DNA from: Lachnospiraceae bacterium
Lineage (GTDB): Bacteria; Bacillota; Clostridia; Lachnospirales; Lachnospiraceae
Direction: 5' to 3'
Length of the DNA stretch: 64,000 nucleotides
Assembly (NCBI GenBank): GCA_022510545.1
Contig: JAFLTG010000001.1
Span: 1 to 64,000, forward strand
The position numbers were made by a program, and so were the translations under genes. This document shows positions 5,842 to 19,973 of this stretch, piece by piece; the first letter of the stretch is position 1; each line of letters starts with the position of its first letter. The notes under the pieces were generated by a model, which ran no database searches, was not told the origin of the DNA, and saw only the letters and a list, made by a program, of their open reading frames with translations.

Positions 5842-6471
5842 ATGAGTAGTATTACAGACAGCATGAAAAGTTCAATTATCGTGCCGGTAGTAGTTATTGA
5901 GAACGCTAAAGATGCGGTTCCCACAGCTAAGGCTTTGCTTGCCGGCGGTATCAATGTAATGGAGATTACACTGCGTACGGCAGCTGCTATTGATTCAATC
6001 AAAAATGTTGCAGCTGAATGCCCTGATATGATAGTCGGAGTTGGTACGGTATTAAATCTCGACCAGGCAAAACAGGCGGTAGAAGCAGGAGCTAAATTCA
6101 TAGTTTCTCCCGGTTTTGATGAAGAAACCGTTAAGTGGTGCGTTGAAAAAGGTATTGATGTTGCACCCGGCTGTGTTACTCCTACTGAAATCATGGCAGC
6201 ACGCAAACTTGGTCTTAGAGTTGTTAAATTCTTCCCTGCTAATGTATATGGCGGCTTAAACGCTATCAAAAACCTGTCAGCTCCGTTTACGGATATGCAG
6301 TTCATACCTACAGGCGGCGTAAATACCGAGAATATTGCAGAATTTGTTGCAAATAAGGCAATTTTTGCAGTAGGCGGAAGCTGGGTATGTAAGAAAGACG
6401 ATATTTCCGCAGGAAATTTCGACAAGATTACAGAGCTTTGCAAAGAGGCGCGTAAGAACGCAGGAGCATAG
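5842..6471 (+). CDS. eda: 2-dehydro-3-deoxy-6-phosphogluconate (KDPG) aldolase
   Basis: GGINVMEITLRTAAAIDSI...VGVGTVLNLDQAKQAVEAGAKFIVSPGFD...PGCVTPTEI...KFFPA class I aldolase pattern. Confidence 0.93.
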   Translation: MSSITDSMKSSIIVPVVVIENAKDAVPTAKALLAGGINVMEITLRTAAAIDSIKNVAAECPDMIVGVGTVLNLDQAKQAVEAGAKFIVSPGFDEETVKWCVEKGIDVAPGCVTPTEIMAARKLGLRVVKFFPANVYGGLNAIKNLSAPFTDMQFIPTGGVNTENIAEFVANKAIFAVGGSWVCKKDDISAGNFDKITELCKEARKNAGA

Positions 6472-6523
6472 GGTGAAAACAAAGTTTTCACCCGCGAGTT
6501 TGGGGCTATGCCCCAAACATCGC
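6471..6523 (+). repeat. Two-hairpin post-stop element, copy E1
   Basis: GGGTGAAAAC-aaa-GTTTTCACCC followed by GCGA-GTTTGGGGC-tat-GCCCCAAAC-a-TCGC, directly at the eda stop codon. Confidence 0.8.
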
Positions 6524-6540
6524 AATTTATGAAGTAAATA

Positions 6541-6577
6541 AAAAGGAGCTGTCTGGTTTGGGCAGCTCCTTTATTAT
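6541..6577 (+). terminator. Rho-independent terminator downstream of eda
   Basis: aaaaggagctg-tctggtttggg-cagctccttta hairpin with T-rich tail. Confidence 0.8.
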
Positions 6578-6612
6578 TCTGCTTTTGATATTGCGTTGGT
6601 TTTATAACGGTA

Positions 6613-7251
6613 TTACGCCAACACTTTCTTAACAGCCGCCGCAATAGCGTCATCCTTGCAGTTTGCAAAGAAGTATTCCGAGAAGTGTTCTCCGCTTAAT
6701 GCGCCTTTAACCAGTTCCTGGTCAAGATTCTCAAGTATATAAACCATATCGGTATGTGTTACTTTCTTAACCTCATCAAGAATCTTCTTATTCCTTTGTT
6801 CCGGAACAACTCTTTCCTTCGGATATCCGCCGCCGCCCGGTGCACAGAATAATTTTTCAAATATGTAAGTGAGGTTCAGTTCACCGCCCCAGCCGAAGTT
6901 CTCTGCAAAGGGAAGGGCGATACAGTTACCGTCGTTTACCTGAGAGAAAAGGTATGCATCCAGCGGTGATTCAATATGACCGCAAAGCACCTGCGGGAAT
7001 GAGTTGCAGGCAAGCATAGCGCCCTCGCCGGTTCCACAGCCTGTGATTACGAAATCAGCAGCCTTGGAGTTGAGCAAAACTGCGGCAAGGATACCGTTCT
7101 GTACATATGTAAGCTGAGCTGCATCTTCGGCAGAATACATACCGTAGTTGAATACCTCATGACCCATTGGCTCTACAACTGATTTTAAAGTATTGCAGAC
7201 CATTTCATTCTTAGCGGCCTGACTATTTTCCATAATTAATGCTATTTTCAT
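6613..7251 (-). CDS. RpiB/LacA/LacB family sugar isomerase (possible second uronate ketol-isomerase)
   Basis: MKIALIMENSQAAKNEMV...DFVITGCGTGEGAMLACN; adjacent to kduI. Confidence 0.75.
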   Translation of the reverse strand: MKIALIMENSQAAKNEMVCNTLKSVVEPMGHEVFNYGMYSAEDAAQLTYVQNGILAAVLLNSKAADFVITGCGTGEGAMLACNSFPQVLCGHIESPLDAYLFSQVNDGNCIALPFAENFGWGGELNLTYIFEKLFCAPGGGGYPKERVVPEQRNKKILDEVKKVTHTDMVYILENLDQELVKGALSGEHFSEYFFANCKDDAIAAAVKKVLA

Positions 7252-13936: not shown

Positions 13937-15496
13937 ATGGATATTCGATTGATTATGAAAACGTCGCGTAGTGTCACAGTTGAACTTGACGATGGCGGAA
14001 CTTATGAAACTTTTGAGAAATACAGACTTTTTTTGAATCATGAAGAATGTATGTTGACCGGTACGGTCATTACAAGTATTTATGATCTGAAACCGGGCAC
14101 CGAGTATCTGCTTGAGGTTCGCAGCATAGACGGAACCAATGCAGGAAGCATTAATTTCAAAACGGAAGAAGAATTCGTTACAATTAATGTAAAAGAACTT
14201 GGGGCAGTTGGAGACGGAGTATCGGATGACACCGGTTTTATACAGGCTGCCATTATGGCCTGCCCGCCTAAGAGTCGTGTGCTTATTCCGAAAGGAAAGT
14301 ATAAGATTACCAGCATCTTTTTAAAGAGCGGTATCAATCTGGAAATTGCGAAAGGAGCGGAACTGCTGGCAGAGACCGACAGAAATCGGTTTGCTAAATT
14401 CCCCGGACTGATAGAGAGTTATGATGAAACCGAAGAATATAACCTTGGAACCTGGGAAGGCAATCCGTTGCCTATGTTTGCAAGTATTATTACCGGAATC
14501 GGAGTGTCTGACGTTAAGATTTACGGAGAGGGTATAGTCAATGGCTGTGCTTCTACCGATAACTGGTGGAACAATCCTAAGGTTATGGTTGGAGCTTTTA
14601 GACCCAGGATGCTGTTTTTGAATCATTGTGACAGGATTCAGGTACAGGGAGTTACATTCTGCAATAGTCCGGCATGGACTATACATCCGTATTTTAGCAA
14701 TGAACTGATGTTTGCCAATGTAAAAGTGCAGAATCCCCAGAACTCCCCTAACACTGACGGCCTTGATCCCGAATCATGCCGCGATGTGAAAATATTAGGC
14801 GTACTTTTTTCACTTGGAGATGATTGTATTGCAGTTAAATCGGGTAAAATCTATATGGGTAAAAAATATAGGATTCCTTCAGAGAATATACATATATGCC
14901 ATTGCCTGATGGAAAAAGGACATGGAGCCGTTACCGTCGGAAGCGAGATAGGTGCCGGTGTACGAAATATGACTGTTGAAAAATGCCGTTTTTCACATAC
15001 TGACCGTGGACTTAGGATTAAGACTCGTCGTGGCCGCGGAAAGGATTCGGTTTTAGACAACATAACATTTAAGAATATAGATATGGATCATGTAATGACT
15101 CCGTTTACTGCTAATGCCTTTTATTTCTGTGATCCTGACGGACATTCTGAATATGTACAGTCCAGAGAGGAATATCCGGTAGATGACAATACACCAGAAA
15201 TGGGACATTTCCTGTTTGAAGATATTCATGCAGATAACTGCCATGTGGCAGCAGCATATTTTGACGGACTGCCGGAGCGGAAAATCGAAGAGATAAAGAT
15301 GAAAAACTGCTCAATTTCTTTTGCAGACGAGGCTGTAACCAATGTTCCTATCATGGCTAACGGAGTGGATGCCTGCTCTAAGAAGGGTATACATGCGACT
15401 AATGTCAAGAGACTTATCCTTGATAATGTAATTATTAGAGGAAATGTTGGTGATGATTTGGAGCTTGACGGTGTTGATAAGTTCGAACAGGACTAG
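13937..15496 (+). CDS. Polygalacturonase, glycoside hydrolase family 28
   Basis: NTDGLDPESCRDVKILGVLFSLGDDCIAVKSGK...GHGAVTVGSEIGAGVRN...RIKTRRGRGK are GH28 catalytic motifs. Confidence 0.95.
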   Translation: MDIRLIMKTSRSVTVELDDGGTYETFEKYRLFLNHEECMLTGTVITSIYDLKPGTEYLLEVRSIDGTNAGSINFKTEEEFVTINVKELGAVGDGVSDDTGFIQAAIMACPPKSRVLIPKGKYKITSIFLKSGINLEIAKGAELLAETDRNRFAKFPGLIESYDETEEYNLGTWEGNPLPMFASIITGIGVSDVKIYGEGIVNGCASTDNWWNNPKVMVGAFRPRMLFLNHCDRIQVQGVTFCNSPAWTIHPYFSNELMFANVKVQNPQNSPNTDGLDPESCRDVKILGVLFSLGDDCIAVKSGKIYMGKKYRIPSENIHICHCLMEKGHGAVTVGSEIGAGVRNMTVEKCRFSHTDRGLRIKTRRGRGKDSVLDNITFKNIDMDHVMTPFTANAFYFCDPDGHSEYVQSREEYPVDDNTPEMGHFLFEDIHADNCHVAAAYFDGLPERKIEEIKMKNCSISFADEAVTNVPIMANGVDACSKKGIHATNVKRLILDNVIIRGNVGDDLELDGVDKFEQD

Positions 15497-15549
15497 TGCG
15501 AAGAATTAATTCTTCGCACGCAAGTTTGCACCTTCGGTACAAACATTGC
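15497..15549 (+). repeat. Two-hairpin post-stop element, copy E2
   Basis: TGCGAAGAATT/AATTCTTCGCA then GCAA-GTTTGcACC-ttc-GGTaCAAAC-a-TTGC, immediately after the GH28 stop codon. Confidence 0.8.
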
Positions 15550-15575
15550 GGGTTGAGTATGATTGGAGGGATAGA

Positions 15576-16418
15576 GTGCAATTAGGTATACGTTTACATG
15601 ATATAAAAAAGGCTCCGCTGGAGGAGCGGCTTAAGATTGCAAGGGAGCAGGGCTTTAAATGCGGACATCTGGCGCTTTCCAAAGTGATATCCGAATATTC
15701 GGTTGCAGACGAGGCGCTGACACCGGGCTTTGCCTGCTACCTGAAAAGGTTGTTTTATGAAAATCATATTGATATAGCCGTACTTGGCAATTATCTGAAT
15801 CTGGCAAATCCTAATGAGGAGAGCCTTAAGAAGAATCAGGCACGCTACCTTGCCCATATACGCTTTGCATCTCTTCTGGGATGCGGAGTGGTAGGAACAG
15901 AGACCGGAGCGGTCAATGAAGGATACAAGTATGAGGAACGCAATCATTCTGAAGAGGCACTTGAGATTTTTATAAAAAATGTCAGACCGGTAGTGGAATA
16001 TGCGGAGAAAATGGGCGTGATTTTTGCGATTGAGCCGGTGTTTAAGCATATTGTATGCAATCCGGAGCGTGCCAGAAGGGTATTGGATGATATAAATTCT
16101 CCTAACCTGCAGATTATTTTCGACCCGGTCAATCTATTGGATATCAGTAATTATCAGGATAGGGAAAAAATCATACACAATGCGATTGACTTGCTTGGTC
16201 AAGATATTGCAATGGTGCATATTAAGGACTTCAAAGTTGGAGAAAAAGGTCTGGATTCTGTTGCGGCAGGTACGGGAGAGATGGATTATAGCGAGATTAT
16301 CCATTTTATCAAGGCAAGGAAGCCATATGTGCATGTAACTCTGGAAAACACGGTTCCGGAAAATGCAGTTGAATCAAGAGAATATATCCAGAAACTCTGG
16401 GACGATTGTGAAGTGTGA
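15576..16418 (+). CDS. Sugar phosphate isomerase/epimerase (xylose isomerase-like TIM barrel)
   Basis: LGIRLHDIKKAPLEERLKIAREQGFKCGHLALSK...FAIEPVFKHIVCNPERARRVLDDINSPNLQIIFDPVNLL; GTG start after ggaggg preferred to the upstream TTG. Confidence 0.8.
   Translation: MQLGIRLHDIKKAPLEERLKIAREQGFKCGHLALSKVISEYSVADEALTPGFACYLKRLFYENHIDIAVLGNYLNLANPNEESLKKNQARYLAHIRFASLLGCGVVGTETGAVNEGYKYEERNHSEEALEIFIKNVRPVVEYAEKMGVIFAIEPVFKHIVCNPERARRVLDDINSPNLQIIFDPVNLLDISNYQDREKIIHNAIDLLGQDIAMVHIKDFKVGEKGLDSVAAGTGEMDYSEIIHFIKARKPYVHVTLENTVPENAVESREYIQKLWDDCEV
16186..16202. repeat. TTGAC-N7-GTCAA dyad
   Basis: ttgacttgcttggtcaa inside sugar isomerase gene. Confidence 0.8.
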
Positions 16419-16452
16419 AATATGATAAATGGTTAAGCGAAAGGGAAGGTTT

Positions 16453-17583
16453 ATGGACAGGATTGAAAAGTATATTGACGAATTGATGGAGAAAAGTACA
16501 CCGGATAGACCAATCTGGAATATCGAAAAGATTCTTCAGGGAAAGAAATCCACCTGGGATTATATTGACGGATGTATGATAAAGGCGATTCTGGAGATGT
16601 ATGCAATCACTAAAGATAAGAAATACTTTGAATTTGCGGATGCTTTTATCGACTATAAGGTAAAAGAGGACGGCAGTATTGAAGGTTATAATGTGTCTGA
16701 ACTGAATATTGATAATGTTAATGCCGGAAAGACTCTGTTTGAATTGTATGATCTGACAGGAAAGGAAAAATATCGCAAGGCAATCGACTTGATTTACAGC
16801 CAGATTGAACAGATGCCAAGGACAAAGGATGGGAATTTCTGGCACAAGAACATTTATCCGAACCAGGTATGGCTGGATGGCCTGTATATGTGTCAGCCCT
16901 TCTATATGGAATATGAAACCAGATTCAATGATAAGAAAAACTATGACGACATTTTCAATCAGTTTGCACAGGTGGTTAAGCATATGCGTGATCCCAAGAC
17001 AGGTCTGTATTATCATGCTTATGATTCATCCAGGGAGATGTTCTGGTGTGATAAAGTAACGGGTCTGAGCCAGAATTTCTGGCTGCGCGCACTTGGCTGG
17101 TACTCAATGGCGCTGCTTGATACTCTTGATAAGATGGATTCAAGCAGCGGAGATGATTACGAGACACTGAAGACTGTGTTTGTAGAACTTATGGAAGCAA
17201 TGCTTAAGTATCAGGATGAGAGCGGTATGTGGTATCAGGTTGTAAATCTGGGCGGCATGGAAAAGAACTATCTGGAAACCAGCGGAAGTTCTATTATGGC
17301 ATATGCATTATTGAAAGGTGTACGTCTCGGATTCTTGCCGGAAAGTTACAGGGAAAACGGCAAGAAAGCTTTCCAGGGAATTTGTGACAAGTATCTTTCT
17401 ACGGACGAGGAGGGAAATCTTCACCTTGGAGGAATATGTCTAGTAGCAGGGCTTGGCGGTAAAGCGAAGCGTCCGGGTACATTTGATTATTATATGTCGG
17501 AGCCTGTGGTAAATGATGATGCCAAGGGAGTGGGACCGTTCCTGCTGGCTTATACGGAGATGCTTAGACTGGAGAAGAACTAA
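16453..17583 (+). CDS. Unsaturated rhamnogalacturonyl hydrolase, GH105
   Basis: WDYIDGCMIKAILEMY...NQVWLDGLYMCQPFYMEYE...FWLRALGWYSMALLDTLD...ETSGSSIMAYALLKGVRLG; start chosen by RBS. Confidence 0.95.
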   Translation: MDRIEKYIDELMEKSTPDRPIWNIEKILQGKKSTWDYIDGCMIKAILEMYAITKDKKYFEFADAFIDYKVKEDGSIEGYNVSELNIDNVNAGKTLFELYDLTGKEKYRKAIDLIYSQIEQMPRTKDGNFWHKNIYPNQVWLDGLYMCQPFYMEYETRFNDKKNYDDIFNQFAQVVKHMRDPKTGLYYHAYDSSREMFWCDKVTGLSQNFWLRALGWYSMALLDTLDKMDSSSGDDYETLKTVFVELMEAMLKYQDESGMWYQVVNLGGMEKNYLETSGSSIMAYALLKGVRLGFLPESYRENGKKAFQGICDKYLSTDEEGNLHLGGICLVAGLGGKAKRPGTFDYYMSEPVVNDDAKGVGPFLLAYTEMLRLEKN

Positions 17584-17661: not shown

Positions 17662-18858
17662 CTATTTCAGAAGTGCCTTAGTCTCTCTGGCAATTGCAAG
17701 TTCCTCATTGGTAGGAATTACAAGCACTTTAGTAGTAGAGTCAGGTGTTGAAATAACAAGCTCCTCTCCACGTTTGGAATTCTGTTCCTTATCCAGAGTG
17801 ATGCCCAGATATCCGAGGCGGCTGCAGATCATTTCTCTTACGAATGCGCTGTTCTCACCAAGTCCTGCCGTAAAGCAGATTGCGTCCACACCGTTCATAG
17901 CTGCGGTGTAAGCACCGATATATTTGGTTACACGGTATGCAAAGGTCTCAATTGTACGGATTCCTTCTTCCTTGCCGCTTTCATAAGCATCCTGAAGATC
18001 ACGGAAATCTGATGAAAGATTGGATGATAAACCAAGTACACCGGATTTCTTATTCAGTATCGACATAATGTCATCTATGGATTTGCCTTCTTTATGAGCG
18101 ATAAATTCAATGATGGCAGGATCGATATCACCTGAACGTGTACCCATGATAAGTCCCTCTAACGGAGTAAGACCCATTGAAGTATCGATACATTTACCGT
18201 TCTTAACCGCTGAAACGCTGGCACCGTTTCCAAGGTGGCATACGATGATCTTTAAGTCTTCATACTTTTTACCTAATACTTCGGCAGCCCTGTTTGATAC
18301 ATAGGAGTGGCTGGTTCCGTGGAAACCGTATCTTCTTACTTTATATTTCTCATAGTATTCATAAGGGATACCATATAAATAAGCTTCCTTGGGCATAGTC
18401 TGATGGAAAGCAGTATCAAATACAGCAGCCATAGGTGTGTTAGGCATAAGCTCTTTGCATGCTGCGATTCCGATTAAGTTTGCAGGGTTATGTAAAGGAG
18501 CAAGCTCGTTACAATCGGTGATTGCCTTAACAACTTCATCTGTGATAAGAGTGGATTTGGCAAATTTCTCACCACCATGTACGATACGATGTCCTACAGC
18601 CGCAATTTCCGAAAGATCCTTAACAACGCCATTGACTGAATCAGTCAATGAATTGAGTACCAGCTTAACTGCTGTTGTGTGGTCTTCCATAGGTGTCACT
18701 GTCGTAATCTTATCTTTACCTTCCGGCTGATAGACAAGCTGGCTGCCTTCTATGCCAATTCTTTCACATAAGCCTTTTGCAATCAGTTTTTCTGTTTCTG
18801 CGTCGATCAACTGGAATTTAAGAGAAGAACTTCCGCAGTTAATAACTAATATATTCAT
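17662..18858 (-). CDS. ackA: Acetate kinase
   Basis: MNILVINCGSSSLKFQLID...VGHRIVHGGEKF...FDTAFHQTMP...YGFHGTSHSYVS...HLGNGASVSA; start at 18858 not 18915. Confidence 0.98.
   Translation of the reverse strand: MNILVINCGSSSLKFQLIDAETEKLIAKGLCERIGIEGSQLVYQPEGKDKITTVTPMEDHTTAVKLVLNSLTDSVNGVVKDLSEIAAVGHRIVHGGEKFAKSTLITDEVVKAITDCNELAPLHNPANLIGIAACKELMPNTPMAAVFDTAFHQTMPKEAYLYGIPYEYYEKYKVRRYGFHGTSHSYVSNRAAEVLGKKYEDLKIIVCHLGNGASVSAVKNGKCIDTSMGLTPLEGLIMGTRSGDIDPAIIEFIAHKEGKSIDDIMSILNKKSGVLGLSSNLSSDFRDLQDAYESGKEEGIRTIETFAYRVTKYIGAYTAAMNGVDAICFTAGLGENSAFVREMICSRLGYLGITLDKEQNSKRGEELVISTPDSTTKVLVIPTNEELAIARETKALLK
18632..18648. repeat. TTGAC-N7-GTCAA dyad
   Basis: ttgactgaatcagtcaa inside ackA. Confidence 0.85.
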
Positions 18859-18900
18859 GATTATCCTCCATTTTCTATATCGATAATAGTGCCATAACTT

Positions 18901-18971
18901 GCGATGTTTGAGCATAAGCTCAAACTCGCAGACGAATAAAATTCGTCTTGTGAAACATTTTTAATTTCACC
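18901..18971 (-). repeat. Multi-hairpin post-stop element, copy E3
   Basis: Minus strand GGTGAAAttaaaaatgTTTCAC, GACGAAttttaTTCGTC, GCGA-GTTTGAGC-ttat-GCTCAAAC-a-TCGC, immediately after the pta stop codon. Confidence 0.8.
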
Positions 18972-19973
18972 CTAGCTCAATTGTGCCTGTACTGCTGTCA
19001 GGGCAACTACGCCGACGATATCTTCCCATGAACAGCCGCGGGAGAGGTCGTTAACCGGTTTAGCGATACCCTGAAGTATCGGTCCGTATGCTTCTGCCTT
19101 TGCAAGTCTCTGAACCAGCTTATATCCGATGTTACCACTGTCTAAGTTAGGGAAAATAAGTACATTTGCCTTACCTGCAACTTCACTGCCCGGAGATTTG
19201 GTCTTAGCTACCGATGCAACCAAAGCAGCATCTAACTGAAGCTCACCGTCAAGGCAGAGGTGAGGATATTCTTCCTTGGCTATCCTTGTAGCTTCTACAA
19301 CCTTGTCAACCAGAGCATGTTTAGCGCTGCCCTTGGTAGAGTGTGAAAGCATCGCAATAATAGGCTTAGCACCTACAAGTGCCTTAAAGCTCTTGGCTGA
19401 GGAATCGGCAATAGCTGCAAGCTCCTCTGCCGTGGGGTCCTGATTCAGACCGCAGTCTGCAAACAGGAAAGTACCGCCTTCACCGAATTCACAATCCGGG
19501 ACATCCATAATAAAGAAACCTGATACAAGTTTAACGCCGGGAGCAGTTTTAAGAATCTGCAGTGCCGGACGAAGAGTATCTGCCGTTGCATGAGCGGCTC
19601 CGGCTACCATGCCGTCGGCATCATTGGCTTTAACCATCAAAACGCCGTATGTAAGAGCATCTGTTAAAAGAATCTCTCTTGCCTGCTCAGGGGTCATGCC
19701 TTTGCTCTTTCTTGTTTCATAAAGTAAATTCACATATTCGTCAAGTTTGTCTGATTTCTTAGGATCCTCGATAGTAACGCCGTCAAGCTCTACTTCCAGC
19801 CAGCTTGCACCGTCAAGTATCTTTTCCTCATCGCCTATCATAACTATATCGGCAATTCCTTCTGCAACAATATGAGATGCTGCAATCAATGTTCTTTTGT
19901 CGGTTGTTTCCGGCAATACAATTTTTTTCTTGTCGCTTTTTGCTTTTTCTTTCATTAGGTCAATGTATGACAT
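18972..19973 (-). CDS. pta: Phosphate acetyltransferase
   Basis: MSYIDLMKEKAKSDKKKIVLPETTDKRTL...; MVAGAAHATADTLRPALQILKTAPG; NVLIFPNLDSGNIGYKLVQRL. Confidence 0.97.
   Translation of the reverse strand: MSYIDLMKEKAKSDKKKIVLPETTDKRTLIAASHIVAEGIADIVMIGDEEKILDGASWLEVELDGVTIEDPKKSDKLDEYVNLLYETRKSKGMTPEQAREILLTDALTYGVLMVKANDADGMVAGAAHATADTLRPALQILKTAPGVKLVSGFFIMDVPDCEFGEGGTFLFADCGLNQDPTAEELAAIADSSAKSFKALVGAKPIIAMLSHSTKGSAKHALVDKVVEATRIAKEEYPHLCLDGELQLDAALVASVAKTKSPGSEVAGKANVLIFPNLDSGNIGYKLVQRLAKAEAYGPILQGIAKPVNDLSRGCSWEDIVGVVALTAVQAQLS

Follow-up and report, generated by a model that had tools for sequence, protein, structure and literature searches.

A dispersed REP-like palindromic repeat, probably mobile and related to Rfam TD-1 and TD-2, between pta and ackA in a Lachnospiraceae bacterium

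The space between pta and ackA in this Lachnospiraceae bacterium holds one member (E3) of a dispersed repeat in which, on the minus strand, a palindrome (H1) abuts an imperfect hairpin (H2). We consider it probable, at roughly 0.6, that E3 is a REP-like mobile palindromic repeat that is related to the Rfam families TD-1 and TD-2 and transcribed as intercistronic RNA hairpins. This reading ties two orphan families to a repeat scattered in Lachnospiraceae of the gut and in other Clostridia; TD-1 and TD-2 would then be mobile palindromic repeats, not cis-regulators or sRNAs. It also points to a REP-like system without RAYT in Firmicutes and Spirochaetes. Since empty and filled sites occur in sibling species, direct tests are open for mobility, for the turnover of hairpins and for any effect on operon expression.

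Results

Pfam confirms both neighbours of E3 in the window (the whole 64,000-nucleotide stretch analysed) as Pta (PTA_PTB, ORF 18972-19973) and AckA. Read along the minus strand, the pta TAG (18974-18972) is followed by GGGTGAAATTAAAAATGTTTCAC, AAGACGAATTTTATTCGTCT and then GCGAGTTTGAGC-TTAT-GCTCAAACATCGC. The features, with the basis of each in brackets, are these:

18972..18974, minus strand: pta stop codon TAG, whose G opens the GGG with which the repeat starts on the left (sequence)
18950..18970, minus strand: extra upstream hairpin of E3, GTGAAAT..GTTTCAC, with arms at 18970-18964 and 18956-18950 (sequence, fold, junction shared elsewhere)
18930..18948, minus strand: H1 of E3, the palindrome AGACGAATTTTATTCGTCT abutting H2 (sequence, covariance model R1, folded helix)
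18901..18929, minus strand: H2 of E3, GCGAGTTTGAGC-TTAT-GCTCAAAC-A-TCGC, with one bulged A (sequence, fold, repeat counts)
18887..18900, minus strand: tail of E3, AAGTTATGGCACTA, a degenerate match to RRGTTGAGAAA inside model R1 (column counts)
17662..18852, minus strand: ackA, with a GGAGGA ribosome-binding site (sequence, ORF list, Pfam)
6471..6537, plus strand: copy E1, GGGTGAAAACAAAGTTTTCACCC plus H2, after a KDPG-aldolase gene (PF01081) (covariance model, 68.8 bits, E 5e-16)
15496..15563, plus strand: copy E2, GTGCGAAGAATTAATTCTTCGCAC plus H2 (covariance model, 75.8 bits, E 8e-18)

The original prediction described E3 as a third copy of the element, at 18901-18971, with three hairpins. 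It is a genuine further copy: model R1, which was built from 12 copies and includes the tail right of H2, matches 18887-18948 on the minus strand (E 1e-12). The three-hairpin architecture is confirmed by the RNA fold, which gives exactly three hairpins at -32.9 kcal/mol (z -7.3), a stability reached by 0 of 200 shuffles. The element is thus real, and the predicted coordinates end 3 nt before the T of the stop codon. The start of ackA is likely 18852 rather than 18915. An in-frame ATG at 18915 lies in the H2 loop and adds a spurious N-terminal extension of 21 residues (18915-18852) to AckA in mechanical ORF calls, so that an annotation pipeline could be misled.

The H2 core has the consensus GCGAGTTTG-n-CAAAC-A-TCGC, and GCGAGTTTG-n-CAAACATCGC occurs 2 times in the window against 0.00 expected. 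In the bacterium's own genome, which like those of most relatives is a MAG, a slightly shorter exact H2 pattern (GCGAGTTT..AAACATCGC) gave 19 matches and its reversed control 0, and the covariance model under strict filters found 21 places at E <1e-4. In nearly every copy a palindrome lies directly against the left edge. The H2 of E2 carries a compensated base pair (GCAAG..CATTGC). E2 sits between the first two genes of a pectin-degradation cluster (window 13937-17583; GH28, a TIM-barrel isomerase-like protein and GH88 by Pfam).

The repeat unit is about 65-70 bp long, and its H1, mostly 19-27 nt, is nearly free in sequence. Pairing in H1 was counted on distinct copies (about 90) with the arms read from outside in, because the 5' arms came out misaligned when all copies were aligned with MAFFT; it reached 98-100% at the outermost eight positions and 88% at position nine. 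Each position uses several pair types, with shuffled means (42-96%) lying well below except at near-invariant positions, and the stems keep pairing via changes on both sides. One orthologous pair (L271/L121) has two double-sided H1 changes (GGGTAAAAAA.. and GGCTGAAAAA..), an identical H2 and flanks 91-95% identical; at another orthologous locus (L399/L082) H1 and H2 are both rewritten and still palindromic. Gene conversion, re-insertion and hairpin-templated repair are candidate explanations for the H1 changes at such loci.

In H2 the outer stem is invariant, and the inner stem varies in length and sequence, with pairing of 59-99% by position. A helix defect is kept in 46 of 46 copies from about 1.8 Mb of contiguous sequence, a defect-free stem being found in 0. 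The defect is an A bulge in 37 copies and in 2 more with altered yet paired neighbours, a G bulge in 2 and an A.C mismatch in 5. In both Bacillota and Spirochaetota the outer stem and the defect persist and the inner stem varies, which makes H2 the most likely part for a protein to recognise.

The left flank of H1 has A at -1 in 89%, T at -2 in 56% and A at -3 in 69% of 99 copies. The predicted fusion of E3 to the pta stop codon is real, and is explained by this site preference (A at -1, T at -2), since the preference extends to copies that have no stop codon upstream. Right of H2, many copies carry a degenerate RRGTTGAGAAA that shades into the ribosome-binding sequence typical of the genus. 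The sequence GAGAAAGGCATGG downstream of many copies was rejected as part of the element: only 3 of its 22 one-mismatch matches in 1.18 Mb of the relative G036 have H2 upstream, so that we take it for the usual ribosome-binding site in this genus. Solo palindromes that resemble H1 but lack H2, with GAGAAAGGCATGG closely downstream, were seen in G036 (L273, L318, L320) and G000 (L305).

The predicted modular extra hairpin is borne out by a recurring junction and by one orthologous locus. The junction TTTCAC/AAGACGAA..TTCG (the slash marks the joint) was found 5 times across two sister genomes, namely E3 and C106 in the own genome and 3 loci of HAN048 (G066), while TTTCAC/AARACGAA..TTCG was absent from six other genomes tested; L396 holds a near variant. 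At the orthologous locus (L403 vs L395), G000 reads TTTCACAC/GCAAGTTTG and HAN048 reads TTTCAC/AAGACGAACTTCGTTCGTCT/GCAAGTTTG. One sister therefore has two hairpins and the other three, which supports modular insertion, and the form with three hairpins is a genuine if small subtype. The identity of the extra hairpin in E3 had to be corrected: it is the upstream GGTGAAA..TTTCAC, and AGACGAA..TTCGTCT is the equivalent of H1. The former is an H1 that lacks its 3' CC, and its paired part therefore begins at GTG. It is this upstream palindrome, rather than the AGACGAA hairpin, that looks like the displaced one.

Of 36 congeners, 6 carry the exact pattern; a survey of 24 further families in the order gave 0 carriers. 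With the covariance model, 2 of 244 genomes from elsewhere in the class gave one match each. Among the matches listed, other carriers with unrelated H1 sequences are MAGs of Oscillospiraceae and other Clostridia. Two such copies (L103, L107) adjoin another common repeat containing CCTCATCCGTC. A phage origin was rejected, as 14 viral contigs match the H2 pattern without an abutting H1 and are read as chance; single matches in Planctomycetota, Proteobacteria and others, among the matches listed, have no H1 and are likewise read as chance. A literature search, with the primary TD-1/TD-2 paper outside its reach, returned nothing on this repeat.

At pta-ackA the element was found in no congener with a readable junction. 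G036, whose AckA is 95% identical, reads AATTAAGTTAAAAGGAGAG there, and the sibling HAN048, with both flanks 95-96% identical, reads AATTATCATAAAGTTATTAAC; the E2 site is also empty in G036. The original prediction had named as evidence against it absence from pta-ackA in relatives together with a lack of other copies; the absence was found, but about 20 more copies lie elsewhere in the genome. Since every readable congener junction, including that of the sibling with flanks of about 95% identity, is empty, E3 is best read as a recent insertion, with loss in the relatives as the alternative. HAN048 shares AAGTTAT beside its empty site, so loss is a possibility there. The empty/filled comparisons, in which the right boundary is fuzzy, revealed no target duplication.

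In contiguous sequence from G000 and G036, tandem gaps hold 35 sense and 3 antisense copies (binomial p 7e-8), as counted with a simple ORF caller; the trinucleotide ATA, as a control in the same analysis, is balanced between the strands. A wider, partly redundant copy set has 63 sense and 6 antisense copies. The 20-kb stretches are too uniformly oriented to split the transcription strand from the replication strand, and in the single informative case the element follows the direction of the local genes. No T-run follows the hairpins of E3, and a terminator scan of both strands found no terminator. Three stable hairpins without a T-run make mRNA protection or processing possible at pta-ackA and termination unlikely.

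The repeat is also scattered, in related form, through oral and rumen treponemes; TD-1 and TD-2 reportedly stem from work on Treponema denticola. The H2 pattern has 33 copies in T. vincentii and 7 in T. parvum, with unrelated H1 sequences, and T. vincentii copies pass the TD-2 gathering score, their H1-H2 units reaching 62-71 bits, for the most part on the opposite strand. The window held no gathering-level match. E3 scores 43.5 bits against TD-2 (RF03162; window 18870-18951, plus strand), below the gathering score of 48.7, and 29.6 bits against TD-1 (RF03155), below 64.5; it is therefore related to both through H2 and is not a member.

Several further arrangements were observed. In T. vincentii OMZ 806 (L177, about 6490-6620) two units lie inverted and 34 bp apart in a REPIN-like manner, and close to them is another, related palindromic repeat. 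Some copies in Treponema fall within open reading frames (L099:5864-5887, by eye a sugar-kinase-like N-terminus, and L129), reminiscent of the palindromic elements of Rickettsia proteins. A HAN048 contig with two repeat copies (L155) holds a TwoAYGGAY RNA at 133-302 (109 bits) and a SAM riboswitch at 1875-1988 (72 bits); TD-2 itself has two AYGGAY-type loops.

Y1_Tnp (PF01797, RAYT) had 0 matches in the complete genomes of T. vincentii and T. parvum and in G017, G004 and the element-rich G006. G000, G035 and HAN048 hold only fragments or broken frames, and G036 a partial match. With no Y1 in the complete treponeme genomes or in G006, these are unlikely to use the textbook RAYT route, and a Y1 transposase was rejected as their resident partner. 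The Y2 transposase (PF04986, IS91/Helitron-like) was found in 0 of 7 carriers, and control genomes likewise gave no match. Flank counts revealed no unpaired GTAG or CGTC end tag; the CGTC of E3 is paired within H1 and is missing from most copies.

Discussion

The repeat has three parts: H1, a palindrome beside the target with almost no constraint on its sequence; H2, the imperfect hairpin with one stem defect, which does not vary; and a short tail that is degenerate. H1 may be a replaceable structural module, new palindromes arising at the H1/H2 junction, and E3 would retain a displaced older one. The unit may have been spread in trans by a hairpin-recognising enzyme, possibly lost or only visiting. 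E3 would then be transcribed in the pta-ackA mRNA as a stable hairpin array, which could affect 3'-end protection or processing between the two genes. It is probably kept because the site tolerates it, not as a dedicated switch. Several points weigh against the mobile reading: the strong sense bias is unexpected for a simple transposon and equally compatible with a regulatory RNA, no enzyme or target duplication was found, and loss in relatives is possible at some sites.

It is unlikely that the repeat is instead a cis-regulatory RNA, in which leader or intercistronic hairpins bind a factor at H2 and set the translation or stability of the next gene. The sense orientation of 35 of 38 copies in tandem gaps, a start codon that often lies 16-36 nt downstream of H2, the double-sided pair changes in H1 and the Rfam classification of TD-1 as Cis-reg are all consistent with such a role. 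However, the downstream genes look unrelated by eye (AckA, which alone was tested with Pfam, SIR2-type, RecN-type, enolase, Pgk and others), and the sites differ among close relatives. E1 is followed by terminator-like sequence and a convergent gene, and has no gene to lead, and treponeme copies occur inside open reading frames and as inverted dimers. An intrinsic terminator between pta and ackA is highly improbable: very stable hairpins do stand at the pta stop codon, but they lack a U-tract, the scan was negative on both strands, and many copies lie at most 40 nt before a co-directional start codon.

If the repeat is mobile, it might be a classical REP or a miniature element derived from IS200/IS605 and moved by a Y1 tyrosine (RAYT/TnpA) transposase. 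The imperfect palindrome, a bulged T in the 5' arm of H2 on the other strand, the target-like left flank and the inverted dimers of T. vincentii would suit such an enzyme. We regard this origin as improbable, given that PF01797 is absent from five carriers and present only as fragments or broken frames in G000 and HAN048, and that neither GTAG nor CGTC forms an unpaired end motif. A bolder proposal, which we hold only tentatively, is that H1-H2 represents a cross-phylum minimal class of mobile DNA with its own putative non-RAYT enzyme. H2 would be the recognition hairpin, its 5' edge the acceptor for fresh palindromes and H1 a turnover cassette, with TD-1 and TD-2 as the treponeme branch and not regulatory RNAs.

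The reading of E3 as a REP-like mobile repeat can be set against known systems. REP sequences and REPINs are GTAG/CGTC-tagged and RAYT-associated (PMC3733652, PMC2817692, PMC3116915). Like them, the present repeat consists of short imperfect palindromes in many copies, is extragenic and species-patchy, and sometimes forms inverted pairs. Unlike them, it has neither tag nor RAYT, its two hairpins lie side by side and one of them can be replaced freely, and it shows a sense-strand bias before start codons. TD-2 has the same H2-H1 arrangement on the opposite strand, and in the alignment E3 presents H2 (GAGUUU/AAACUC) and then an H1-type helix. E3 differs in its Lachnospiraceae host, and it has neither the first hairpin with an AUGGAU loop nor an ACGGAU loop on H1; at the first TD-2 hairpin its flank aligns without an AYGGAY loop and with a non-standard pair, and its H1 loop is 3 nt. 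TD-1, in which the H2 core is followed by a long second hairpin, whereas the H2 of E3 is preceded by H1, belongs to the same clan as TD-2 and shares the H2 core with E3, including the bulged A and the orientation.
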